A stretch of 64,000 bases of DNA, from the NCBI GenBank assembly GCA_017506865.1, contig JAFCMP010000130.1, positions 62,001-126,000 on the forward strand, read 5' to 3'. Of this stretch, positions 12,138 to 55,717 are shown in pieces. The notes under the pieces were generated by a model that had not been told where the DNA came from, searched no databases, and saw nothing but the letters and a program-made list of their open reading frames with translations. This stretch comes from Tribonema minus (Eukaryota; Sar; Xanthophyceae; Tribonematales; Tribonemataceae). The first letter of the stretch is position 1; every line of letters begins with the position of its first letter. A program made the translations under genes and the position numbers.

Positions 12138-12492
12138 TGAAACAAAGTTGGGGTTATATTTGTTATGTTAAGCCTGTCTTACTTGTAGATGGGGCAGCGT
12201 TGGCTTGGGCTGATTTAGAAGGGTCCATGATGGTTGATGGTTGTTGGCTTCAGTTGTCTCTATCCTGGAGCCGTGGTATCCTAGCTGACTGACAAGAACC
12301 GAGGCCTTGCAAGCACAACCCTTCATCTGGGGAGACTCAAGGGTCTCACCGGTTAAGGGGTTTTCCTGCAATGTTCCCCTAGTTCGAACCAATTGCCCTG
12401 GGCCCTAATAACGGCCGAATATAATAGAGTTGAAACATCATAAGCCAGAAGGCTACATAAATAGTTTACTTTACATACAGCTGCCCGTGTCA
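12138..12492 (-). repeat. 3' LTR of the retrotransposon
   Basis: 355 bp, TGA...TCA ends on the plus strand, no mismatch seen by eye to 23168-23522. It lies downstream of the Gag-Pol stop on the minus strand. A 74-codon ORF inside it (12168-12392) occurs in both LTRs and has no recognisable domain. Confidence 0.95.
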
Positions 12493-12505
12493 ACTCCCCC
12501 TTCTC
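12493..12505 (-). other. polypurine tract
   Basis: Minus-strand GAGAAGGGGGAGT abuts the 3' LTR, where plus-strand DNA synthesis is primed in LTR elements. Confidence 0.85.
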
Positions 12506-12745
12506 ATGATTTCTCTGTCCCCAGAGAAACGCATAGCACCACAGGGATCAACGTTGCTACAGTTCTACGTTAGCGTATGTGTAATTCAATTTGCTTCACC
12601 TCCACACCCAACCTTTACAGACCCTCGTATAGAGTATCCACATAGGTACTGTGCAGCGCAATATTCGTTTAAGGCGCCGCTGCACAGCTCGAGGATAGCT
12701 TCATGTCACAGCGCCGGCCAGCCACTGAGCACATGCGTGGTGTAG

Positions 12746-15700
12746 CTACCTCACATCACCATCGCTCAAATCCATGTCATCGCCACTGTATGAACCTGAA
12801 CCTCCCTGACCAGACTCCTGGCCCAAGGGGACCTCTTCTGCGACCGTGGTCAGCAGTAGGTTCCAACTGGACATAGGGTCTGCCTCAGCCTGCTCGCTTG
12901 TAACTGCGGTGCTGTAGTAGTCAGGCCTCAGCCGCACGGTGATTAAACGCGTGACTGGGTGCCCGTTGTAATGCACGCGAAATGTGTACTTGCCTGCCCG
13001 GGGCAAGTATTCCTTGAGCACTGCACGGCTCCAACCAGTTGCACTTTTGACTCTCACGGTCTGACCATGGTAAGTCGCACCAAAGTCTGGTGGGATCCCA
13101 GGGCACATTTCCTGCACCACCTTGGGGCTAGAAACCGTGACGCCCAGATCCTTTGCGCGCTGCTGAGTGGCTTCAGCCAACGCAATTGCGCATTGCAACT
13201 GCCGCTTTGTGAAGTCCTCCCAGTCACCATCTTCATAGCGCACGCGCCAGTACGGTGCGAGGTAACCAGTGATGGTTCCCCATAGGTACTTGACTTGTTG
13301 CTTAAGCGCGCCGCGCTCCTCACGCACCACCTTAGTACCTCTCGGGAATAGGGCCAGCGCAGCCTCTTTCGTGGCTACGCGCCGGTCCTCCCGTGGTATC
13401 CTCATGGCGTAGTCAGGCATGTCATTCACATGCTTCAACTCGTAGAGCGCGTGAAAAGTATCGAGCGTCCAAGGCATGGCAACCTCGAGTGCATCGTCCT
13501 CTGTCTTCCATGTGCTCAACGTACCATCTCTGAGCAGCCAACGGTAGTCCCACGAACCATTGGGGTTGTACCGGCGGTCTACCAGCCTCTCTAGCCAGCC
13601 ATCTTTGGGCAGTTGCTTAATGTCTTCCTCATTAAGCACCGCGTAGGGCTTGTCAAGTTCCATGACACTTGGCCTTAAATGAAAAGGCTTCATGTTGGTC
13701 ACATGTGCCCGCGTGCGACGCACCCGGCGCCCCATCATGCGGCATGAAAATGACAGCCCAGATCCGCCAGTTTCCTCTGCTACCACCCATGGTGCAATGA
13801 ATTTAGGGTCCAGCTTCCTGGAGCGTCCCTTAGCAGGCTTCTGCTTGATCATGACCAGGTCCCCAACTTTAACCTTCATTGCGCGCTTGACCGCTTCATT
13901 AGCCTTGTCAACTCTGCGCGCCTTGATGCCATATGCCTCATCAATAACCTTCTGTGCCATTTTGAGGTTGACGCGCTTGCGTTCAATCTCAGAATGTAAG
14001 TCACCACCATGCACTTCATCAGGGAAGGTTTCGAATGGCAGGGACGGCTCGCGGCCATACACACAGTAGAAAGGGCTCAGGCCTGTTTCTTCTCTGGGGG
14101 TGGACCGGAGAGCGAACTGCACAGCCTCAACGCCCTCATGCCAATTCTGTTGGGTCTTGTCAACCCAGGCAGTCAGAATGGCCATGATGCGTTCATTTTG
14201 CCGTTCAGCGACCCCATTTGCCTGTGGGTGGTATGCACTTGTGTCAATTTTCATGATCCTGAAAATTGAGCACAAATCGCGCACCACAATGTTCAGAAAC
14301 TCCTTGCCTTGGTCCGACACCAGCTCCTCTAACATGGATCCCATTTCTAGGATTACCTTGTACAAGAGCCTTGCAACCGTATGCATGTCCTTGTTTTTAA
14401 TTGGCATGAGCCAGCAAAATCCAGAGCGTGCCTCAATTACTGTCAGCAGCCCTATGTGCCCCTCTGAAGACACCACCGAGGTCATGGTGATGTCAGTGTG
14501 CGCTCGCTGAAACATGCGAGTTGGCAGTGTTAACATCATCTTGGCCTTGCCAGTCGTAGCCTTCTTGCGCTGTAGGCAAGACATGCAACTAGTGACATAC
14601 GTGTGTACATCACTGCTGATGCGAGGCCAGTAGAAGCGCTCAAACAGGCGGACATACGTGGCGCTTGCGCCGGCGTGACCGGCCGTGGCGTCGTCATGCC
14701 CCAGCCTCAAAACCAGAGGGCGCAGCGCGGCGGGTACAAACCATTGGCGCAGCACCATCCCGCGTTTGGGGTGGCTGGTGGCCAGATGTACCAGCAGGCC
14801 GTCCTCCTCGTGACAGTACCAGTCACGGTTCACCATTAAGTGTGCAGCCAGCTCACTATCCTGCGGGTATATATTGTCCCTCAGAGTGCGTGACACTGCC
14901 TGACACAAGGGGTCCCGCTGCTGGAGCTCAATAAACGCTTCCCGGCTTAGCATTGCCGGCACAGGCGTGGTCCCGTCGACTGGTTCAGGGACCAGTTCAT
15001 GGCTGGGCCTGCTGAGTGTGCGCTTACGGCGTGGCTCCGACACCCCCTCTGTTCGCTGCGGGGGGATGGCGCCCCCTGGTAGCGGTACAGCGGTGTTGGC
15101 AGCGACCCGGCGGCGCTTGGCAGATATGCTCGCAGTCTTGCTAGATGCCGGGGAGTCCCAGTCAGACTCTGCCGCCTCATCCATGCATGCATTAGCATAC
15201 ATATGCAAAGTAGCTGGACTGAAAGACATCGACGCAGTCTCTCCATCCGTCCACGAAGAGTCTTCCTCGTCCAGCTCACATAGCAAAACATTGACCTGTT
15301 GGACCGTAAGCGTAGCCAGCCTGGCTGCTATGCTTGAGTCCTCACTTGCATTCTTCATGGCTAGCTCATTGAGCGAGAAGGGAGTGCCCCACTCATTGCT
15401 CACCAGTTTACCCCTGAAGTTGGCAATTTTAATTGCCGCTGCAGAAACATGTGACCCATGGTTGGTCGCCTTTGCTTGGTCAGCAAACTCCCCTAAGGGC
15501 GCCGCAAACTCTTCCACAAAATGTGCAAACTTCACCCCTGAAGGTGGTGCTGCAAAGCATGGAATTGAGTCTGACCATTGCTCGTCTGCTTGCTCATACT
15601 CTCTAGGAGCGTCCAACTCTTTTTGCATAGGGAGCCTGGACAGGCCGTCTGCATTTGAGTTCACCAGGCCTGGTCGGTGTTGTACGGTAATGTCGTACTC

Positions 15701-18700
15701 CAGCAACCTCATAGCCCACCGCATAAGCTTGCCATTGTGGTCCTGCAAAGTCAGCAGCCATCGTAGGGCCGCCGCATCTGTAACCACTGTGACTGGGTTG
15801 CCCCACACGTAAGGTCGGTAATGGTTGAGTGACAGCACGACGGCCAGGCACTCTAGCGCGGTAGCGCCAAGTTTGGCGTCTTGTGTGGAATTAATTTTTG
15901 AGAAGTAACCCACTACTACTTCCATTTCCTCCTTCCCATTTACTGTGCGCCTGCGGCCTGCCGCGGGGGCAGCTTCTTTGCCACTAAGTGCCTGCACTGG
16001 TTTAAATTGCGTCAAAATGCCACTAGTGGCAGTTTGAGATGCATCAGTGTACAGCACAAATGGTAGTGAGAAGTCTGGGTGTGACACCAGTTTTGCCTCG
16101 CACATTGCCTTTTTTAATGCCTCAAAGGCATCGCGCCTGCGCCTATCCCATACCATTTCTGCATCACTTTTGGTCAGCTCCACAAGTGGGGCTGCCAATG
16201 TCGCAAAATCTTGAACATACCGCCGGTAATAGTTGAAGCAGCCCAGTACTGTACGTACTAGCCCCTTGTCAGCTCTCCCTTTGGCATTCAATGGCGCGCT
16301 CATGTCAGACATTGCCTGAACCTTTTCTGGGTCTGGACGAATGCCCCCTGATCCCACAATGTGACCAAGGAACTTGATCTCAGTTTGGAACCATTGGCAT
16401 TTGTGCCGCGCCACACTTAGACCAGCGTCTTTGATGCGTGATAGGACGTCACGGATATGCGCAAGGTGCGTTTCCATGGAGTCATCATATATCAAGACGT
16501 CGTCGACGTAAACCATGGCATATGCACCTAGGGCAGCGCCCAAAGTGTTGTGCATCAAGCGTGTGAATTGCGCAGGCAAATTCACAAGCCCAAAAGGTGC
16601 CACTGTGTACTGCCATAGCCCTCCATCAGGTGTGCGGAATGCCGTTTTAGGCTTGTCACTTTCGCGCAATGGTATCTGATGGTAGCCCGCGGCCATGTCG
16701 ACTGAGGACACGTACCGGGCGCCCTTCATTTGATGCACCATATCATCGATGTTGCCTAGACCTCTGCTGTCGCGCTTCGTGACAGCGTTGAGACGGCGGA
16801 AGTCCACGCAAAGTCGTATCTTATCACCTTGCCTTGCTAGTACTGGGTTGCATGCCCATGGACCATTGCTAGGCTCCACTTGCTTGCGCACATGCATGGC
16901 CTTGACATGTTCCATGATGTACTCTGCCTCCTTTTGTGCCCACCTCCTAGCCTTTTCAGCGATGGGCATTGCATCACCAGTGTCAATCTCAAACTCCATG
17001 AGGTTTGTCACTGTCGGATTTTTGGGGTCCTTTGCAAACACGCTCGCGAATTCGTTGAACACATCCATCAGATGCTCAGCATATGGCCTACCATCGGGGG
17101 CTTTCATATCATGAAGGTCACCTTTGGTGGGTAGCATCTCGCGTAGCTCTGCTTCAGTGCAGGGTTCCTGTGTGGTACGAGTGCGTTCTGTGCCTGGTGT
17201 AGCAGCAGACACATTAGCAGCACCATAGGTACCAGCAGCCTTCCCCAATGCAATTGCTCGCAGCGCCGCGGTTGCAGCGTAGCTGAACTCGCTGTTCGGG
17301 TGGTGAGCTGCAGCCACCTGCAAGAGCTGTTGCTCAAGCTTGGTCGCAGATGCGTCCTCCAACTCAATGATATCCTCAGGCGAAGCCGGCCGTGCCTCAC
17401 CAATGAAGGTGTTTCTGGCCATAAGCACCGGCTGGTCTGAGAAGTTTACCATGCGTGCGCGCACAGGGTTGTGCGCGCCAACAATATCCACCGACATGGC
17501 GGCCTTTACGCCCCTTTCTTGCAACTTCAACATCGTCTGAGACATTGCGGGTTGTATTACTGCCGAGTAGGGGCTCAGCCCTTTCACTGGTGGGTGTAAT
17601 GCAACTTCAACGTTCACCTCGGTGTGCGCTGGAATGAGTATGTCATTCACCAGGCACACGGCACGATGCGCAGGGGGGGCTGGTACTTTGGGGCTAATTT
17701 TCACAGCCCCTGCGGTCTTAGCGCCTTGCCACACCGTCCCATGCGCTGCCTCGCTGCCTAGCATCTTCAACTTTGGGCCGTCCGAACCTAACGGCTGGTA
17801 TGTCAAATCCTCATAGTCAAAGAGGGTTTTGTACATGCCAAAGAAGTCGCTGCCTAGAATGGTGGTGATGGCCAAGTCCACAATGTAGAACTTGTGCCGC
17901 ACCAGCTTGTTACCAAACCGTAAGGTGAGGTGCAAAGCGCCTACGATCTTGACCTGTGTGCGACTGTCTGCCAGTTCTATGACTGAATGGTCCCCCTTCT
18001 CAAGAGGGCATGTCGTCCCTGGAGATAGCTCATCCGCCGTTGCTTTTGCCATGATGCCTGCCTCAGCGCCGGGGTCCAGCAATGAGACAAAGTCTCGTTC
18101 TTTGAACCCACGTTGGTGCTGCACGCGTGCCTTCAGCCTGGCAAACCGCTGCTTGCTGGGCTGGCCACTTGGCAACACAACTGTCTCTCCCGGCCTAACC
18201 GAGGCGGGATCCACTTCAGCGGCTTGTGAGCGGCTCGCTTCATCGTGTAGCTTGGCAGCCACAGCGCTCACGCGAGGGTTGCCTAGCCCACGCCTGCGAG
18301 TTGCCTCATGCACCGTGTCGTCAAACTGATGCTCGTCTTCACTGGCGTATGCACCTTGTGAGGAGCCGCTAGGGTGTGACTGCACAAGTTCCTCTTCCTC
18401 AACTTCATCAACATCAGAGTCTGAGTCATTGCACGAGTCATTGAGCGCTGTGCAAGACCAAGGACCTGTGTTCAAACCTTCTGTACATATCATATCAGGG
18501 GTGACTGCATACTGCCAAGCACTGCATCGTGCGGTGATGGCCGCAACCCTAGCCTGCACCTTGCCTTGCTCAGTAGGAGTCTCTGCCACATGCATGTAAT
18601 CTTCAGACCCTGGCAGCATCCATTCAGGGGGGGGTGCACTAGGGTCATGGTCCAGGCGGACACCCCGGGGACAAGGGGCGCCTACTTGAAGATCAAGCAT

Positions 18701-21700
18701 GCCAGATCCCACAAGCCCAACGGCAATGTGAAAAGCCATGCGTGGCATGACTAAGTTTACAAGCCATAACTTCATGTCCTCAATGGTGGCCTTGCATGGC
18801 AAGTCACGTGTGAAGGTGAGCAGGACAGCCATTTCACGCAATGACAGTACTCTTGCATTTTGCACAGGGCCAGCATCATGTTCATCATCAGCCACATAGT
18901 CAGCCAGATCCACTGGTGGTTTTCCAGGGTTCCGCCTGACCGGGCTGGGCATGCAGTCATCGGCATCATACACACTCTTGGTACCCTTCACGCGAGATTT
19001 CCAAAAGAAACAGCGCTCAGGGCAGCGAAGAACACGCCGTACGGACATGGGTAATGATGAACGCTGAATTGCATTAATTAACGCCCCGAACCGTGCCATA
19101 GCGGTCGTGACACCAACCCCTGCCCGCGCAATCACCACATACACCCGCCGCCGGTGGCACGCTATGCTAAAATCCGACCCCTTCAGCTTGCTGACATAGA
19201 GACAGTAGCCGTGGGCCAGCAGCAAAGCCTGCGCGCGCGCCCACGCCTTGGAGCTGAGCATGGATACCACATTCTCGATGACACAGCAGCGCAGCTTCGC
19301 CCTCACAATCAGCCGCGCCGCCATGATCGTCACCTCCGCCGCTGCCCCCTCAACGCCACTCCCGTTTGCATAATCTGTGCACGGGGGGGACATTGTGGTG
19401 AGGTCAGGATCCAGTTCAGCCAGTGCTATGGCTACCGCATCATCGCTCAGGCACGCGTTTAAAACCTTGTGGGTGCCAGGGTGCAGTTCGTGGTACGCCT
19501 CACACACGCGGGGGCACTTGTCAACAGCAAGTTGAGTGTCCACCACAAGGCCTGCCACACTTGCCTGCTTTAAACCCTCGTCCCAGCCACCAATGCCGCA
19601 GCATATGGAGGCGTGTGTCACATGCCGCGCTGCACCCGCCACTGGCATGCCAGCATCAGGGTCCTGTGTCACAGCGGTAGCACAGACAGGCGATTCGCTT
19701 GCATTAGGTATGGTAACCGTATGCGGCGAACCAGTGTTTGATGGGGGAGTATCGTTTGCACTATCACCTTCAAGTTGCATGTTAGCATCAGCCGTAGACT
19801 GCGACACTTCCGCGAGGGAAGGTACGCTGGGTAACGAAGGATGCAACATAGCCAGCAATACGGCGTCATTGTGCCCAGGCGCGCGCTCACGTGGTGAGGT
19901 TGCGATGGACGCGGAGACGCACATATCACGTTGACCAAAAGCATGTTCAAGTTCAACTGCGGCGCGCGCACCGCTGGTGCCACCCCCTGAGAGGGCCGCA
20001 CGCGCGCGCGCGAGCGAAGTAGACTCACCCTGAGCCCTCTGCCAGGCCACAAAGGCCATCATCTTGTGATACTCGTCCGCCTCCGCTGGCGTTGGCGCAG
20101 CGGCAGCAGCCGCCGCTGCCACGACCGGCGCCTGCGGCATAGCAGCCGGGGGCGGAAAAGGGGGGCGGGGACCGTACCGCGTGTACTGATTCGCCTGATG
20201 CGCCGGTGGCGCGCCGCGCGGCTCACCGCGCGGCCCGCCGTACGGTGCGGCGCGGGGGCGGCGGGAAGGATCAAACGCCGGGCAGTTGGGCGTGTTGCGA
20301 TGCATGTCAACGGCGATACCGCGCGGCAGCGTTGTCTGGCAGTCAAAGCATACCCAGTGAGAACGCGGGTTGAACTGCACCATGCCTGAATTGTCATGCT
20401 CAGGCGCGGGGGGCCCACGCCTGGCGGGCGCGGCTGCCGGAGCCGACTTGGCGGCTACAGCAGCAGCTCGCACCTCCAAGGCTTTCTCCTTTTTGGCGAG
20501 GCGCCTCTCCTTGTCCGCCAGCGTTCTCTCCTTGCGCGCAATCTGCGAGGCAGAGGGCGTCTGGCGCGGCGCGTCACTTGCTTGCGACGCGTCGTCGCGC
20601 AAACTCTCAAGGTCAGAACCATCCTGCGACGTGGGTCCGCCCTTGCTCGCGGCATGGGCTTTCCCGTTCCAGGTGCGCTCAATGTGCTCCTGAATGCTCG
20701 CAAGACCAGCGTCCTGCCAGCCCCTCCCCAGTGCAACCCTAGCGGCCGTCCGCTCCTTGGATGAGATGAGGCGTAAGTAGTGAAGCTTTTCAGAAAACTC
20801 ACGAGAACTTTCGCTACCACCTGCCTGTACAACCATGTTCCGCACGCGGAGAGCCAACTCCCCAGGGCTCTCGCTCGGGAGACGCCTGGCTTGAAGTAGA
20901 GAATTGTACACCTTCTCTTGGGCAGCTTCAGAGTTGAAGTGCTCAATTATGGCTGCACAACGTTCTGCGTACGTTAGCTGCTCCCACCCCTTCCGCTTGC
21001 CGCCGACCTCTAGGGACAGTAGGCGCACAGTTGAAAGTAAGGGTTTGTCCTTCGACGCCTTTATGGCCACACTTAGAGCGTGGACCTTGACGTCCTCCGC
21101 CATGGAGCGCAGCGCAGCGGTGAGTGAGTCAAGCCTGGTGACACATACACCTACGCGAGAAGAGAGGTCGGCTACGCCGGCAATCCTACCAGCCTTCGCA
21201 TAGACGTCTCCCTTGCCCCTGTTAGCAGCGTCAGCGCCGTCCGCTCGGGACGGTTCACTGCCATCGTCGCTGGGGGTCGTGGTGACCCCAGTGCTCGACG
21301 GCGCAGTATGAGACATCTGAATCGAGGCCGCCACGCCAACGCGGGGCGGGGCAACCTGGACCAAACGCCCTGCCTGCAAGTGCTGCACCAGCTGCACCTT
21401 CTCGAACGCCTTGAGACGGCGCAGTGTATCTGCATCGCCAAGATCGCGATCCATGATTGCGTCGAGTTCTATGCGAGCAGTCTCCAAAGCGCTGAATCTC
21501 TGTGAGTACGCGCAGCGGTCAACTTCTACCTGCTCCATGCTCGCCTTAAGACGTGGAAGCTGGTACGTGATCGCATAGAGGTCCGTCTTGTACATTGTAC
21601 GTTCAGGGGAACCCTCCTTGCTAGCATCGCGCAGGCCACGCAACACCTTAGCCTGGGCGTCAAGGTCCTGGAAACGTTCTTGCAGCTGTACCTCGTCTGC

Positions 21701-22051
21701 AGACAGTCTCGCCGAGGCAGATGCCCCGGACTTGTGCGAGGCCGCCAACAGCTCGAGCAGCCGGGTATAACGGGCTCTGGATACGGTTAGACCGGCACCA
21801 GTCTCACCCGCATCAGAGCTGGCGTCGTCACCGGCGCCAGCGCATATCTCGTCGTCGAGCTCCGCCTCTCGCTCGCTACCGCCAACGGCCGGCGCAGGAG
21901 GGGTTGCGGGCTCCTTTGACGACTTGGACTTCTTCGCGGGCTTCTCCGGCTTGTCAGCCGGTGCCGCATCAGCCTTGCCCTTACTCCCCTTTCTTTTCGT
22001 GGAGGAGTCCGAGTCTGCACATGGAACAGGATCATGTGTTGAGTCTCTCAA
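12746..22051 (-). CDS. Gag-DNA methyltransferase-Pol polyprotein
   Basis: One 3101-codon ORF without a frameshift. Order by residue: a Lys-rich N-terminus and coiled-coil-like Gag; a capsid-like region (about 344-460); a zinc knuckle C568-X2-C571-X12-H584-X5-C590; a C5-methyltransferase (about 811-1115); an aspartic protease with LLDPGAEAG at D1326 and ILGSDFF downstream; RT with YVDD at 1848-1851; RNase H with YTDAS (D2003). Integrase follows: zinc module H2452, H2459, C2489, C2492, and catalytic D2520, D2580, E2616 with exactly 35 residues between the last two. After the integrase come a chromo-like segment (RRYNPNGSWDYRW, about 2817-2854), a Tudor-like segment (RVRYEDGDWEDF, about 2902-2952) and a third small beta-rich segment. 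Protease DPG instead of DTG or DSG is odd. All other catalytic residues are present. Confidence 0.95.
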   Translation of the reverse strand: MRDSTHDPVPCADSDSSTKRKGSKGKADAAPADKPEKPAKKSKSSKEPATPPAPAVGGSEREAELDDEICAGAGDDASSDAGETGAGLTVSRARYTRLLELLAASHKSGASASARLSADEVQLQERFQDLDAQAKVLRGLRDASKEGSPERTMYKTDLYAITYQLPRLKASMEQVEVDRCAYSQRFSALETARIELDAIMDRDLGDADTLRRLKAFEKVQLVQHLQAGRLVQVAPPRVGVAASIQMSHTAPSSTGVTTTPSDDGSEPSRADGADAANRGKGDVYAKAGRIAGVADLSSRVGVCVTRLDSLTAALRSMAEDVKVHALSVAIKASKDKPLLSTVRLLSLEVGGKRKGWEQLTYAERCAAIIEHFNSEAAQEKVYNSLLQARRLPSESPGELALRVRNMVVQAGGSESSREFSEKLHYLRLISSKERTAARVALGRGWQDAGLASIQEHIERTWNGKAHAASKGGPTSQDGSDLESLRDDASQASDAPRQTPSASQIARKERTLADKERRLAKKEKALEVRAAAVAAKSAPAAAPARRGPPAPEHDNSGMVQFNPRSHWVCFDCQTTLPRGIAVDMHRNTPNCPAFDPSRRPRAAPYGGPRGEPRGAPPAHQANQYTRYGPRPPFPPPAAMPQAPVVAAAAAAAAPTPAEADEYHKMMAFVAWQRAQGESTSLARARAALSGGGTSGARAAVELEHAFGQRDMCVSASIATSPRERAPGHNDAVLLAMLHPSLPSVPSLAEVSQSTADANMQLEGDSANDTPPSNTGSPHTVTIPNASESPVCATAVTQDPDAGMPVAGAARHVTHASICCGIGGWDEGLKQASVAGLVVDTQLAVDKCPRVCEAYHELHPGTHKVLNACLSDDAVAIALAELDPDLTTMSPPCTDYANGSGVEGAAAEVTIMAARLIVRAKLRCCVIENVVSMLSSKAWARAQALLLAHGYCLYVSKLKGSDFSIACHRRRVYVVIARAGVGVTTAMARFGALINAIQRSSLPMSVRRVLRCPERCFFWKSRVKGTKSVYDADDCMPSPVRRNPGKPPVDLADYVADDEHDAGPVQNARVLSLREMAVLLTFTRDLPCKATIEDMKLWLVNLVMPRMAFHIAVGLVGSGMLDLQVGAPCPRGVRLDHDPSAPPPEWMLPGSEDYMHVAETPTEQGKVQARVAAITARCSAWQYAVTPDMICTEGLNTGPWSCTALNDSCNDSDSDVDEVEEEELVQSHPSGSSQGAYASEDEHQFDDTVHEATRRRGLGNPRVSAVAAKLHDEASRSQAAEVDPASVRPGETVVLPSGQPSKQRFARLKARVQHQRGFKERDFVSLLDPGAEAGIMAKATADELSPGTTCPLEKGDHSVIELADSRTQVKIVGALHLTLRFGNKLVRHKFYIVDLAITTILGSDFFGMYKTLFDYEDLTYQPLGSDGPKLKMLGSEAAHGTVWQGAKTAGAVKISPKVPAPPAHRAVCLVNDILIPAHTEVNVEVALHPPVKGLSPYSAVIQPAMSQTMLKLQERGVKAAMSVDIVGAHNPVRARMVNFSDQPVLMARNTFIGEARPASPEDIIELEDASATKLEQQLLQVAAAHHPNSEFSYAATAALRAIALGKAAGTYGAANVSAATPGTERTRTTQEPCTEAELREMLPTKGDLHDMKAPDGRPYAEHLMDVFNEFASVFAKDPKNPTVTNLMEFEIDTGDAMPIAEKARRWAQKEAEYIMEHVKAMHVRKQVEPSNGPWACNPVLARQGDKIRLCVDFRRLNAVTKRDSRGLGNIDDMVHQMKGARYVSSVDMAAGYHQIPLRESDKPKTAFRTPDGGLWQYTVAPFGLVNLPAQFTRLMHNTLGAALGAYAMVYVDDVLIYDDSMETHLAHIRDVLSRIKDAGLSVARHKCQWFQTEIKFLGHIVGSGGIRPDPEKVQAMSDMSAPLNAKGRADKGLVRTVLGCFNYYRRYVQDFATLAAPLVELTKSDAEMVWDRRRRDAFEALKKAMCEAKLVSHPDFSLPFVLYTDASQTATSGILTQFKPVQALSGKEAAPAAGRRRTVNGKEEMEVVVGYFSKINSTQDAKLGATALECLAVVLSLNHYRPYVWGNPVTVVTDAAALRWLLTLQDHNGKLMRWAMRLLEYDITVQHRPGLVNSNADGLSRLPMQKELDAPREYEQADEQWSDSIPCFAAPPSGVKFAHFVEEFAAPLGEFADQAKATNHGSHVSAAAIKIANFRGKLVSNEWGTPFSLNELAMKNASEDSSIAARLATLTVQQVNVLLCELDEEDSSWTDGETASMSFSPATLHMYANACMDEAAESDWDSPASSKTASISAKRRRVAANTAVPLPGGAIPPQRTEGVSEPRRKRTLSRPSHELVPEPVDGTTPVPAMLSREAFIELQQRDPLCQAVSRTLRDNIYPQDSELAAHLMVNRDWYCHEEDGLLVHLATSHPKRGMVLRQWFVPAALRPLVLRLGHDDATAGHAGASATYVRLFERFYWPRISSDVHTYVTSCMSCLQRKKATTGKAKMMLTLPTRMFQRAHTDITMTSVVSSEGHIGLLTVIEARSGFCWLMPIKNKDMHTVARLLYKVILEMGSMLEELVSDQGKEFLNIVVRDLCSIFRIMKIDTSAYHPQANGVAERQNERIMAILTAWVDKTQQNWHEGVEAVQFALRSTPREETGLSPFYCVYGREPSLPFETFPDEVHGGDLHSEIERKRVNLKMAQKVIDEAYGIKARRVDKANEAVKRAMKVKVGDLVMIKQKPAKGRSRKLDPKFIAPWVVAEETGGSGLSFSCRMMGRRVRRTRAHVTNMKPFHLRPSVMELDKPYAVLNEEDIKQLPKDGWLERLVDRRYNPNGSWDYRWLLRDGTLSTWKTEDDALEVAMPWTLDTFHALYELKHVNDMPDYAMRIPREDRRVATKEAALALFPRGTKVVREERGALKQQVKYLWGTITGYLAPYWRVRYEDGDWEDFTKRQLQCAIALAEATQQRAKDLGVTVSSPKVVQEMCPGIPPDFGATYHGQTVRVKSATGWSRAVLKEYLPRAGKYTFRVHYNGHPVTRLITVRLRPDYYSTAVTSEQAEADPMSSWNLLLTTVAEEVPLGQESGQGGSGSYSGDDMDLSDGDVR
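18707..19621 (-). other. C5-cytosine DNA methyltransferase domain inside the retrotransposon
   Basis: Residues about 811-1115 of the polyprotein. Motif I is ICCGIGGWDEGL (816-827; AdoMet binding). Motif IV is SPPCTDY with the nucleophile Cys891. Motif VI is IENV (E926, N927). Motif VIII is the RRRVYVV segment near 963-972. Motif IX is LSLREMAVLLTF (about 1068-1080) and motif X the segment ending MPRMAFHIAVGL. The order and spacing match dcm/DNMT-type enzymes with a short target-recognition region. It lies in the same frame as Gag and protease, so it is a true fusion. Confidence 0.92.
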
Positions 22052-23149
22052 ATATACCCCTCACCATCCAACAATAAGGTATCCATCAGCCTGGGAGAAC
22101 AAAAATTATTATAGTACTCATCAAGAGAGCCTCTCTTGGAACATGGGATGTCCCTGTGCGCTCGCCCGTGCAATTAGCCAGCCCGGGACGTGCACAGAAC
22201 ACACCAGCACTCCCATGAGATGCATGTGGTTGCCAATCATAGCCACGCAAGTCAGTAGAACCACGGGCTCCCGCAACCGTGTCAACCGCGGCATGCTATG
22301 TCTCAATGCATTTGATTCTAGTGCGGCAGCGGCAGAGCAGAGTTACTGTTGTTGCTGCGCAAGCACCATATGCACACCTGTTTATCGTCGTAGTTAACGC
22401 TGTTGCCTAGCTGATTGTGGCCTGCACCAATCCAACACCTCCGGTATGCAACCGTTACCTAAGTTGCTCTGGGTAGCAACTTCAAGCGAGCGTCGACGCA
22501 TTCGCAAGACGAACTGTGATCATCAGCTCGATTACACCATCATCAGATGGTGCCGAGAAACAAAGGGTGGGGGGTGATGGGTAACCTCGCAAGCCCACTA
22601 ATGCCCGTGCAAGTCAGTACGGGAGAACCCGTACCGCAGCTTTCGACAGTCAGCCTCATCATCTCAATTACACAGCGTTAACAGCCGACGTCATGCGAAG
22701 CAACTACGGGTGTGTGAGCCGCTGCTAAGCATGATTCCTCCGACACAGGCACTGGAGCTAGGGCGGCTCACGCAGCATAAAAGCACTGCTGCTCAGTGTT
22801 CACTTGGTAGCGACAGCTGGCACAACCAAGCAAAGGATGCGGCGTGCAGGCGCATATTTACAATGTGCATGCACACCGACCCCTGCGCTAAATTCCTCCT
22901 CGTAGCTGCCTCCAGTTAGTACGAGCGGTAACCAACACTCAGCGCGTCCGCCTCGCGAAGGGCCGATACTGAATGATTGGACGATTTCCTATTCAGTCAA
23001 TTGGCCTACGTTAAGGAGCGGGAAACGCAACGTTGGCGCTCCAGAGCACGTGTTGATGAGGGCAAGCGAGGGCTAACGATACGATATTTAGTGAGCACGT
23101 GTAGCTTGGTTCGTCAGGGCCCGCCAGAGCGAAGCAAGGGGTGGGTAAG
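22052..23149 (-). other. retrotransposon 5' leader
   Basis: About 1.1 kb between the primer site and the Gag start codon, with no convincing ORF. By position it should hold packaging and dimerisation signals. None can be named from sequence. Confidence 0.6.
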
Positions 23150-23167
23150 GACTGTCTGTAGGTGCCA
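23150..23167 (-). other. primer-binding site
   Basis: Minus-strand TGGCACCTACAGACAGTC starts directly after the 5' LTR. TGG complements a tRNA CCA end. The primer tRNA is not identified; it does not look like the usual initiator-Met site. Confidence 0.65.
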
Positions 23168-23522
23168 TGAAACAAAGTTGGGGTTATATTTGTTATGTTA
23201 AGCCTGTCTTACTTGTAGATGGGGCAGCGTTGGCTTGGGCTGATTTAGAAGGGTCCATGATGGTTGATGGTTGTTGGCTTCAGTTGTCTCTATCCTGGAG
23301 CCGTGGTATCCTAGCTGACTGACAAGAACCGAGGCCTTGCAAGCACAACCCTTCATCTGGGGAGACTCAAGGGTCTCACCGGTTAAGGGGTTTTCCTGCA
23401 ATGTTCCCCTAGTTCGAACCAATTGCCCTGGGCCCTAATAACGGCCGAATATAATAGAGTTGAAACATCATAAGCCAGAAGGCTACATAAATAGTTTACT
23501 TTACATACAGCTGCCCGTGTCA
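23168..23522 (-). repeat. 5' LTR of the retrotransposon
   Basis: 355 bp, identical by eye to the other LTR. On the minus strand it holds an AT-rich CTATTATATTC stretch that could serve as a TATA-like promoter element. The right-hand GGTT duplication follows at 23523-23526. Confidence 0.95.
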
Positions 23523-53080: not shown

Positions 53081-53230
53081 CTGCCAGAAGACACGCAACA
53101 GCTTTGGCTTAGCCTGGCATACAGCGAGGGCAAGCAAGCGCGCAGCCTGCTTTGGGCAGGAGAGGAGAGCGAGGAACAGCTTACTTGCACTCTGCCTGAC
53201 TGATAGCGAAAAGAGCGCAAGTCAGCCGCC

Positions 53231-55717
53231 ATGTACGCACAGCACCAGCCACAACAGCCTCAAGGCGGAGGCTTGGAGGCTGGACCGCGCCAACCCCCGA
53301 CTCATGCGCCCCAGCCGATGCAGCAGCCCCATCAGCACTTAACTCACGCGCATCTGGCGCACCTCCCGCAGCAGCAGATGCCGCAGCAGGCCATTCATCT
53401 TGCCGCCTACGATCCTTATGGCACCGCGGCCATGGTCGCCCATCAGCAGCAGATCATGGGTCACCCTCAGCTGGCTGCCCAATTTCTGCAGCAGGGGCAT
53501 TCGCTGCTGCACCATCCGCAGCCGCTGGCCGTGGCCACACAGGCTAGGAGCCATCTTAGAAGAGGCAAGTGGTCATCCGAGGAGGAGGCGTACACGGAGA
53601 GGATCATCCATTACTTTAACACAGGTGTGCTTCAGCTGCCGGAGGGCACCACCCTGAGAGCTTACCTCGCTAAGAAGCTCCAGTGTGACCCGATGCGCAT
53701 CACCAAGAAGTTCACGGGGTCGTCTTGCCTCGGAAAACGAGTTTATCACTCCTGCGAAAGGACGCCGGCATCACCCGACGAGATCACCGCCTCGAAAGAG
53801 GACCTCTCTCAGCTGGAGGCCCGCTTCCTGGCACAACTCGACCGCCGGCGGGAGCGGCGTGCTGGATCGCTCGAGCTGGAAGCGATGACCCTGAGCGGCA
53901 GCCCCGATGCCACGGCCTACGATGCCTACGGCCGGCCCCTGGTGCTCACGGCGGTTTCCGCGGCGCAGCCAATGATGCACATCCCGCCGCAGCACCCGCT
54001 GGCAGCAGCGGCGCAGCAGGCGCAGTGGGCCGCCGCCGCAGCGGCGCAGCAGCAGCAGCAACAACAGCACCAACGCCTTGTGTACGCTGGCTATGGCGCG
54101 CCGCCTGCGGCCCCCACCCCTGCAGCATATGGGTACGAGCCTTCTGCTGCCTATGCGAAGGCACACGGCGCTGCCGCTGCTGCCTACATGCCGCAGACCG
54201 TCGCGTATCCCTACATGATGGCAGCAGGGCGCGCGCCGTCGACAGCACCAGCGCAGCCGTACGCGCAGCCGCCGCAGCACCTTCACGCGCAGTGGGCGCA
54301 GCACATGCAGGCGCAGCAGCAGCAGCAGGCTCAGCAACACGCCGCCGCTGCCGCAGCGGCAGCAGCAGCAGCAGCGGGCATGCCACGTCATCACGCCGCC
54401 ATTCCCTGGCACCAGCAGCACCTGGCGGCGTACTCTGCTGCGCAGCAGCAATACAGCGGCGCCGGCACAGCCGCTGCTGCCGCCACCAGCAGCGGCTCGC
54501 TATCGCACCCCTCTTCACCGCCCACCGTCACGGAGCTCGACAACAAGAGCGCTGCCACCACCGGCGTGGCTCCGAAGCAGTCGGCGGCGGCAGGGGCACC
54601 GGCGGTCAAGCAGCAGCAGCAGTCGCAGCAGAACGGCTCCACCAAGACTGTCACCGCGCCGCTGCCCGCGGGGCTCGTGTCTCACAAGGGCGGCCACAGC
54701 GTCAACGGCAGCGTCACGGGGTCCAGCATCAGCGAGGTGACGACTGCCGACCGCGACAGCGTCAGCTCCAACGGCAACGGCACGGACAACAGCAGCAGCA
54801 GCGGCGGCGAGGGCAACGGCAGCGCCGACAAGCACCAGCGCAGCCACCACCACCATCACATGCGCCGCGGCGGCGGCAGCGGCGGCAGCAGCGCCGCCGC
54901 GCAGCCCGCCGCGCCGTCGTCCATCAGCAGCAGTGCCAGCGACAGCGGCGACGACAGCAGCAGCGGCGCCGCCGCCGCGGACGAGGACCGCAAGGCCAGC
55001 GGCAGCAGCAGCAGCAGCAGCGGCAGCGGCGGCGACGCCGCGTCGACATCACTGTCGAGCGCTGCCTCCAACGACGCCGCGCCGCGCTCGCCGCACGCGC
55101 GCCTGGGCTCCGACGCCGACGGCGGCGCCGGCGCGCTCATGAAGTTCTACGACAGCGTCAACCGCCAGCACCAGAAGCAGCGCAGCGCCGCCGCCGCCGC
55201 AGCCGCCGCTGCCGCCGCCAATGGCAGCGCACCCGACGGCGGCGGCGGCACGCTCAACTCATCGCCGCCGCTGCTCAAGAGCGGCGGCGGCGGCAGCGGC
55301 GCGCACCACGTCCCTGGCAAGAAGCGCCATCGTTTCGGCGGCGGCGGCGGCGTCAGCGCCGGCAGCAGCACCACCAACAGCCCCGGCACCAGCTCCCGCG
55401 ACCACTGCGGCGACGCACAGCAGCAGCAGCGGCACCGCGCAGGGCCGGGCCGGCCGGGCCCGCTGCCGTCGTCCAAGCGCCAGCGCTTGGAGGCGGCGGC
55501 GGCAGACAGCGCGAGCACCGACGGCAGCGACGACGGCGACAACAGCGCCGGCGGCTGCAGCGAGGAGTCCGCGGAGCAGCGCCGTTCCGGCGGCGTGGTC
55601 TCGGCGCCTTCCCGGAAACCATCTGCGCGCGATGAGACGCTGGCGCCGCTGCTGCAGCAGCAGCAGCGGCATCACCACGGGGCTGCGGCGGCGCTGCACA
55701 AGCAGCAGCAGCAGTAG
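53231..55717 (+). CDS. stramenopile-type regulatory protein with GTTLR/CDPMRITKK domain, 828 aa
   Basis: A single-exon ORF, ATG to TAG. Residues about 109-205 hold a compact domain: RRGKWSSEEEAY, then LPEGTTLRAYL, QCDPMRITKKFTG (151-163) and a GKRVYH motif, closing with a helix. I recognise this pattern from many diatom and oomycete proteins of unknown role. The W..EEE start resembles Myb/SANT, so DNA binding is likely. The rest is low complexity: Gln/His/Ala-rich before and after, long Ser and Gly runs in the C-terminal half, and basic clusters KKRHR and KRQR that may be nuclear signals. The composition fits a transcription regulator. It differs from its neighbours in being intron-free and very GC-rich from repeated GCN/CAG codons. 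An inverted repeat ends just upstream. Confidence 0.85.
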   Translation: MYAQHQPQQPQGGGLEAGPRQPPTHAPQPMQQPHQHLTHAHLAHLPQQQMPQQAIHLAAYDPYGTAAMVAHQQQIMGHPQLAAQFLQQGHSLLHHPQPLAVATQARSHLRRGKWSSEEEAYTERIIHYFNTGVLQLPEGTTLRAYLAKKLQCDPMRITKKFTGSSCLGKRVYHSCERTPASPDEITASKEDLSQLEARFLAQLDRRRERRAGSLELEAMTLSGSPDATAYDAYGRPLVLTAVSAAQPMMHIPPQHPLAAAAQQAQWAAAAAAQQQQQQQHQRLVYAGYGAPPAAPTPAAYGYEPSAAYAKAHGAAAAAYMPQTVAYPYMMAAGRAPSTAPAQPYAQPPQHLHAQWAQHMQAQQQQQAQQHAAAAAAAAAAAAGMPRHHAAIPWHQQHLAAYSAAQQQYSGAGTAAAAATSSGSLSHPSSPPTVTELDNKSAATTGVAPKQSAAAGAPAVKQQQQSQQNGSTKTVTAPLPAGLVSHKGGHSVNGSVTGSSISEVTTADRDSVSSNGNGTDNSSSSGGEGNGSADKHQRSHHHHHMRRGGGSGGSSAAAQPAAPSSISSSASDSGDDSSSGAAAADEDRKASGSSSSSSGSGGDAASTSLSSAASNDAAPRSPHARLGSDADGGAGALMKFYDSVNRQHQKQRSAAAAAAAAAAANGSAPDGGGGTLNSSPPLLKSGGGGSGAHHVPGKKRHRFGGGGGVSAGSSTTNSPGTSSRDHCGDAQQQQRHRAGPGRPGPLPSSKRQRLEAAAADSASTDGSDDGDNSAGGCSEESAEQRRSGGVVSAPSRKPSARDETLAPLLQQQQRHHHGAAAALHKQQQQ

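Follow-up and report, generated by a model that had tools for sequence, protein, structure and literature searches.

A Ty3/Gypsy-type LTR retrotransposon of Tribonema minus carries a predicted C5-cytosine methyltransferase (MTase), which is confirmed here to lie in frame between Gag and protease. The element occurs in the window, i.e., the whole 64,000-nucleotide stretch of DNA that was analysed, and judged from its sequence it is young and autonomous-looking. Related MTase domains are found at three positions across four Gypsy lineages, and one multi-copy subfamily has lost motif IV yet keeps the domain in frame; both observations are apparently new. The reading preferred here, with a probability of about 0.45, is that selection keeps the Gag-Pol MTase of this autonomous-looking element and that the enzyme would methylate the element's own duplex cDNA before or at integration. 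The interpretation given in a preliminary description of the window is, as a whole, partly supported.

Structure of the element

The features of the element are listed below.

12138..23522, minus strand: whole LTR retrotransposon, 11,385 bp, with an AACC target duplication flanking both ends
23168..23522, minus strand: 5' LTR, 355 bp, TG...CA, base-for-base identical to the 3' LTR
23150..23167, minus strand: putative primer binding site TGGCACCTACAGACAGTC, abutting the 5' LTR and shared with L015 and L016
12746..22051, minus strand: Gag-Pol frame, 3,101 codons from TTG, with the first methionine at residue 153
20282..20350, minus strand: CX2CX12HX5C zinc-finger-like motif, residues 568-590, at the end of the Gag region
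18707..19621, minus strand: predicted C5-cytosine methyltransferase domain, residues 811-1115 (Pfam, PHROGs, profiles, motifs)
19373..19390, minus strand: motif IV, SPPCTD, with Cys891 (translation)
19268..19279, minus strand: motif VI, IENV, with Glu926 and Asn927 (translation)
17843..18082, minus strand: protease-like region, LLDPGAE ... ILGSDF (motif and conservation in relatives)
16355..16825, minus strand: reverse transcriptase (RT), RVT_1, with YVDD (Pfam)
15695..16075, minus strand: RNase H, PF17917 (Pfam)
14561..14737, minus strand: integrase H2C2 zinc domain (Pfam)
14246..14521, minus strand: integrase core, rve (Pfam)
12493..12507, minus strand: putative polypurine tract, purine-rich, just before the 3' LTR
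12138..12492, minus strand: 3' LTR, 355 bp, identical to the 5' LTR

Direct TG...CA LTRs, a short target duplication (4 bp, AACC), a putative primer binding site and a purine tract place the element with the Ty3/Gypsy LTR retrotransposons. RVT_1, RNase H, H2C2 and rve follow the MTase in Gypsy order within one frame (Pfam), with rve at 38.6 bits against a cut-off of 32.6. Neither a DIRS tyrosine recombinase nor a LINE endonuclease gave a Pfam match in the window frame, and the rve integrase and direct LTRs set the element apart from SymbioDIRS and SymbioLINE. Because the LTRs are identical, the insertion is recent; this comparison concerns the window copy only. A tRNA matching the putative primer site was not found in the window or in eight loci. 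The primer site recurs at L015 (C157:1116022-1126021), whose coding region is nearly identical to that of the window; upstream of that coding region there is no match to the window LTR, which suggests that the LTR was exchanged or belongs to a sister type.

The preliminary description had placed the MTase between a zinc knuckle and the protease. A zinc-finger-like motif does stand at the end of Gag, but its CX2CX12HX5C spacing departs from the canonical knuckle, CX2CX4HX4C. The order MTase before protease is borne out by the D-P-G ... ILGSD motif and its conservation in relatives, but not by Pfam, which made no protease call in the window Gag-Pol. Among relatives, the protease-like motif at window 18062-18082 varies at the usual Ser/Thr or Gly, the triad being DPG in the window and L018, DSG in L020, DCG in L033, DNG in L034, and DSC in L041 and L042. 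Near the C-terminus of the polyprotein (window 13193-13291), a sub-threshold Pfam match to the PTM/DIR17 Tudor domain (18.3 bits, cut-off 27.2) marks a possible chromatin-targeting module. Elsewhere in the window, an 836-codon open frame on the plus strand (53207-55717) has no Pfam match and sits in a GC-rich, CpG-rich block (0.64 GC, CpG observed/expected 0.98).

The methyltransferase domain

The in-frame C5-MTase claimed for 18707..19621 corresponds exactly to residues 811-1115, and the translation puts Cys891, Glu926 and Asn927 at the positions given in the preliminary description. Motifs I, IV (Cys), VI (Glu-Asn-Val), VIII, IX and X occur in order, and PF00145 (DNA_methylase) scores above its cut-off of 22 bits, with 45 bits (E 1.2e-11) in the whole window protein and 53 bits on the isolated domain. 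PF00145 aligns with no more than the catalytic half (profile positions 4-164 of 324), and the motif IX- and X-like stretches come after it in order. Profile searches therefore do find C5-MTase motifs, and not with PF00145 alone: against a profile of phage, host and PDB C5-MTases only, the domain reaches 58.8 bits, while the best of 1,000 shuffles reaches 3.4 bits. Two PHROGs families of DNA methyltransferases match as well (3.6e-19 and 3.8e-17).

Compared as a single sequence with solved structures, the window MTase gave nothing significant (best E 0.11). A nine-sequence profile of lineage 1, which comprises the window element and its relatives, matched DNMT2 (5.4e-12), bacterial MTases and DNMT1 in the PDB, and none of the 52 PDB sequences matched at E ≤1 was named DNMT3, in a comparison that had no positive control. 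All nine aligned lineage-1 domains share the Cys, the Glu-Asn-Val and the two arginines of motif VIII.

Copy number and linkage to Gypsy elements

In the 158-Mb genome, at least 123 places were scored with the PF00145 profile (of 378 candidates), at least 105 with the window MTase (of 457) and at least 102 with the window RT (of 648). Merging three MTase searches gives at least 249 distinct places, and merging four, with the L041 domain as an additional query, gives at least 328 MTase-like places. These merged counts are lower bounds for matches: they exclude some partial or repeated rows of one list, as well as short second pieces from the L041 query and weak rows already present in other lists, a small number of host-like genes (L001-L004) are counted in, and some of the places lie on small contigs, where assembly duplicates are conceivable. 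At least 31 matches, window included, are 98-100% identical to the window MTase over at least 336 residues, and 30 of these 31 have no internal stop.

The MTase is closely tied to Gypsy elements. For 78 of the 102 rows of the window RT query, an MTase on the same strand precedes the RT by 1-4.5 kb. Two of the other 24 (C117 and C290:617968) carry one when read (L031, L032), so the lists miss some MTases. For lineage 2 RT, where the linkage counts use 59 of 102 rows, an MTase stands upstream in 44 of 46 rows taken from the longer matches and, once the L041 domain itself had been used as query, in all 13 of the 37%-identical group. That group had given 0/13 in the first, incomplete lists, and the idea of a third lineage without an MTase was accordingly dropped. 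Among 150 scored Gypsy RNase H places (of 432 candidates), 122 adjoin an MTase, 115 with it upstream and 7 with it directly downstream, and for 28 no adjacent MTase was found in the MTase lists, which miss some.

Other copies with the architecture of the window element exist. Twenty lineage-1 loci (L015-L034), chosen for having MTase or RT matches, were fetched; in 15 of them MTase and RT share a single frame, and the other five are broken or truncated. At G000:C69, two window-family MTases in the same direction (331305 and 342331, plus strand) are 11,026 bp apart, near the element's LTR-to-LTR distance of 11,030, and are probably tandem copies sharing an LTR. At G000:C311:6679-7914, the RT of a lineage-1 relative is part of an open frame that runs for 6,208 codons, roughly double what is usual.

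Selection on the domain

The dN/dS values are Nei-Gojobori counts made with our own script, and deeper pairs are saturated. Between the window and L018, dN/dS is 0.13 for the MTase (dS 1.0), 0.18 for the protease, 0.03 for RT-RNase H and 0.41 for Gag; between L023 and L028, the values are 0.17, 0.14, 0.06 and 0.20, respectively. The pair L020 and L021 shows the opposite trend, their MTases being 97% identical with amino-acid changes and no synonymous ones. By these counts, the MTase domain is under purifying selection, conserved less than RT. The synonymous distance between L023 and L028 is 1.25 in Gag and about 0.09-0.17 from MTase to integrase, and the two look like recombinants with different Gag halves.

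It is hardly tenable that the domain is a one-off or decaying passenger, i.e., a gene or pseudogene for an MTase that a single copy picked up and that has no role. The preliminary description would have been undone by a unique, degraded copy; the window MTase is instead multi-copy and conserved, also across subfamilies. The near-identical matches (at least 31, at 98-100% identity), the absence of stops in 30 of 31 and dN/dS values far under 1 refute the passenger reading, and nothing was found in its favour.

Four lineages and three positions

The order of domains differs among the lineages. In lineage 1 it is Gag-MTase-PR-RT-RNaseH-IN. Lineage 2 (L035, L036) has a protease-like DTG or DSG motif, then the MTase, then RT, and lineage 3 (L041, L042) has a DSC motif, then the MTase, then RT. 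In lineage 4, known from seven places, the MTase starts 148-169 bp after RNase H. The three positions are thus Gag|PR (lineage 1), PR|RT (lineages 2 and 3) and RNaseH|IN (lineage 4), the last of which is based on the RNase H-MTase spacing and on one locus read (L045), with the integrase outside the reading.

The domains in these positions resemble one another. The lineage-1 profile scores 138.5 bits against L045, over nearly the full length, 71-95 bits against lineage 2 domains and 84 bits against L041; L042, which lacks motif IV, is matched in two pieces (22.6 and 32.2 bits). Phage, host and PDB rows reach at most 53 bits with this profile, essentially in the catalytic half. In a 25-row tree, one branch sets all 15 element rows apart from the 10 others, none of which is a Dnmt3 row, with support of 94/92, which is below the starred level.

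Several Gypsy lineages may have acquired related MTases independently, hence the three positions; this reading is tentative, and it has the spread of the domain over those positions in its favour, as well as the best solved-structure matches, which are DNMT1 for lineage 2 and DNMT2 for lineage 1. It is opposed by the grouping of the 15 element rows apart from the 10 others (94/92, not starred), and by the 138.5 bits that the lineage-1 profile gives lineage 4 as against at most 53 for non-element rows. The same joint grouping weakens the idea, which had come from L035 and L036, of two captures of clearly different DNMTs.

No outside source was confirmed among viral contigs for the window or lineage-2 MTase domain, or among GTDB contigs with the lineage-2 domain as query. 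A phage search returned eight records with 23.8-29.8% identity to the MTase. Free-standing C5-MTase genes occur at L001, L002 and L003, which are the strongest PF00145 matches among the places scored in the genome. Beside the MTase gene at L001 lies a neighbouring frame which we take to resemble a deoxynucleotide kinase, and L001 is therefore a possible viral insertion.

Loss and change of motif IV

Of the 15 element domains in the tree, 14 retain the catalytic Cys. Subfamilies E (STPC, STLC), F (TAPC) and G (TSSC), lineage 4 (GSNC) and lineage 3a have a changed motif IV that still contains the Cys. The motif IV region reads TASTRCEG in L041 and TASTTPQLV, without cysteine, in L042. The latter belongs to lineage 3b, in which at least 28 rows match residues 115 or 119 to 337 of the L041 domain at 65-67% identity, a tally that leaves out similar-looking fragments of contigs C25 and C264. 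For 27 of these 28 rows, the match is immediately adjoined by a second piece that stops at residue 90, which means that all of them lack the same 24 residues, with motif IV and its cysteine. The 3b copies L042, L043 and L044 read through the same joint with no Cys there, and frames of this class, with the domain still in frame, extend up to 3,455 codons.

Between L041 and L042, dN/dS is 0.16 for the shared part of the MTase, 0.29 for the linker and 0.04 for RT-RNase H, values that mix the time before and after the loss of motif IV; the 3b copies themselves are too alike for a selection test (dS 0.013 between L042 and L043). Having lost motif IV and its cysteine, the domain of at least one sister lineage would act only without C5 methyl transfer.

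CpG and methylation traces

The CpG observed/expected ratio of the element (0.80) exceeds that of the window (0.76), and CpG depletion of the element by its own enzyme was rejected on this ground. Three alignments, comprising 4, 3 and 4 copies, show 11/1158, 13/1211 and 13/1067 C-to-T singletons at CpG and 5/3808, 13/3831 and 14/3529 at other C (pooled Fisher p 7e-8). T-to-C singletons (15/3806, 27/3755 and 27/3555) are commoner than non-CpG C-to-T singletons, which blurs the direction of change deduced from majorities. The unpolarised CpG-to-TpG excess is 1.58-3.11 in element pairs with more than 10 changes and 2.51 in the non-element pair L002/L003. As this control pair gave the same ratio, the excess was rejected as a sign of self-methylation. 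Because it appears in element copies and in a non-element pair alike, CpG methylation in this genome is likely, but nothing links it to the element's enzyme. The suggestion in the preliminary description that the element methylates itself or hides from silencing is therefore not upheld, the CpG signal not being element-specific and a multi-copy subfamily lacking the catalytic motif.

The rDNA pair L009/L010 has no CpG changes at 291 sites and five other C/T changes. L009 carries eukaryotic 18S, 5.8S and 28S rRNA and ends in an N run. Between L009 and L010, 2.6% of sites differ, and the differences include 16 transversions but not a single CpG transition; the two are either divergent rDNA copies or assembly errors. 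The genome itself is that of an alga, with at least 92 chlorophyll-binding matches (of 116 candidates). One of these is most similar to FCP-D and Fcpb5 (7.6e-31 and 1.4e-30), fucoxanthin chlorophyll a/c proteins of diatoms, which suits a host with chlorophyll c, most probably an ochrophyte, and agrees with the stramenopile host of the preliminary description.

Proposed mechanism and alternatives

The reading in which the element marks its own cDNA starts from the presence, conservation and position of the MTase, which are observed. Given one continuous frame with the domain on its Gag side, the enzyme would be produced in step with Gag, and it may be packed into the particle alongside Gag. C5-MTases act on duplex DNA, and the packed enzyme would act on the element's duplex cDNA, or on the insertion region. 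As to timing, 5-methylcytosine would be placed on the cDNA before or at integration; as to benefit, the new copy would enter already resembling the host's CpG-methylated DNA. The intact frame, the identical LTRs, the invariant catalytic residues, purifying selection and the linkage of the MTase to RT and RNase H speak for cDNA marking. The absence of CpG depletion in the element, the non-specific CpG excess, the persistence of lineage 3b and the altered motif IV elsewhere speak against it. Regarding activity, the available text of PMC5890265 reports that some retrotransposon DNMTs (SymbioDIRS) methylate CG de novo in yeast, and that the Klebsormidium Gypsy enzyme was inactive in yeast, a result that its authors call inconclusive.

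In view of lineage 3b, a non-catalytic role is a serious rival, even if an unlikely one. The domain would then serve Gag-Pol mainly by binding nucleic acid or as a structural module, in packaging, cDNA binding or target binding, with methyl transfer retained or lost by lineage. This fits the 24-residue loss of motif IV shared by 27 of 28 3b matches in frames of up to 3,455 codons, the three copies that stay open through the joint with the Cys absent, the dN/dS of 0.16 in the remaining domain between L041 and L042 and the altered motif IV of several other lineages. Against it stand the Cys in 14 of 15 element domains of the tree, the fact that the L041-L042 value spans the time before and after the loss while the 3b copies are too alike, and the location of some of the 28 3b places on small contigs, where they may be assembly duplicates. 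A broader form, also doubtful, treats the MTase clade as a standard movable Gypsy module, at three positions in four lineages, whose essential service is not methylation, as 3b at about 27 places would illustrate. Decidedly improbable is an action in trans, in which the enzyme would work mainly on the host genome or the insertion region (site marking or restraint of the element) and not on its own cDNA. High copy number and the CpG hypermutability seen outside the element as well (L002/L003) are in line with it; the latter comes from a single control pair, and host enzymes could do the same, given the DNMT2-like and other MTase genes present (L004, L001, L002).

Relation to known systems

The preliminary description knew of no such element from a stramenopile or with this placement of the domain. 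No report of the Gag/protease placement was found in the available open-access literature, but a DNMT-bearing Gypsy element has already been published. According to the available text of PMC5890265, DNMT-bearing retrotransposons, including a Klebsormidium Gypsy, carry enzymes that are Dnmt3-type or of an orphan LINE type. KnitGypsy-Dnmt3 of Klebsormidium nitens (de Mendoza et al. 2018, PMC5890265) is, as far as the available text goes, like the window element an LTR Gypsy with a DNMT in the polyprotein frame, conserved key residues and purifying selection (its Ka/Ks < 0.2). It differs in its Dnmt3-type enzyme, placed in the Pol frame, in a DIRS-like repeat arrangement and in having few copies, whereas the window element has direct LTRs, an MTase between Gag and protease and far more copies. 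The window domain also appears non-Dnmt3-like by the names of its PDB matches, a comparison with no positive control, and in the further lineages of this genome the MTase occupies different positions. SymbioLINE-Dnmt and SymbioDIRS-Dnmt3 of Symbiodinium (PMC5890265, available text) share with the present case hundreds of conserved retrotransposon DNMTs in one algal genome; they are LINE and tyrosine-recombinase DIRS elements, whereas the window element has LTRs and an rve integrase.

The orphan and Dnmt3 retrotransposon DNMTs of PMC12344493 are likewise lineage-specific DNMTs on retroelements; the available text names LTR Copia, DIRS and SymbioLINEs, and no Gypsy was found in it. Among stramenopiles, Sola1-1_Ec32 of the brown alga Ectocarpus (PMC12477816, available text) is also a transposon with a DNA methyltransferase, but it is a DNA transposon with a ParB-like gene and a methyltransferase gene, predicted to make 4mC or 6mA and not C5. 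An opinion article (PMC6338049) names stramenopiles, in the passage available, among the groups that have Gypsy and DIRS retrotransposons with a methylase; that passage gives no element, position or domain class. For the three MTase positions, or for a subfamily without motif IV, no report was found in the available open-access literature, the domain of the search, with subscription journals and preprints outside it.

Significance

Why a transposon should carry the type of enzyme with which hosts silence transposons is, in the available discussion of PMC5890265, an open question. The present genome offers, within one nucleus, a natural series of related elements in which the catalytic motif is intact, altered or absent. 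The 5mC on young copies of each class could tell the marking of an element's own DNA from a non-catalytic role of the domain, and the loss of the active site in lineage 3b bears on what captured enzymes do for a retrotransposon.
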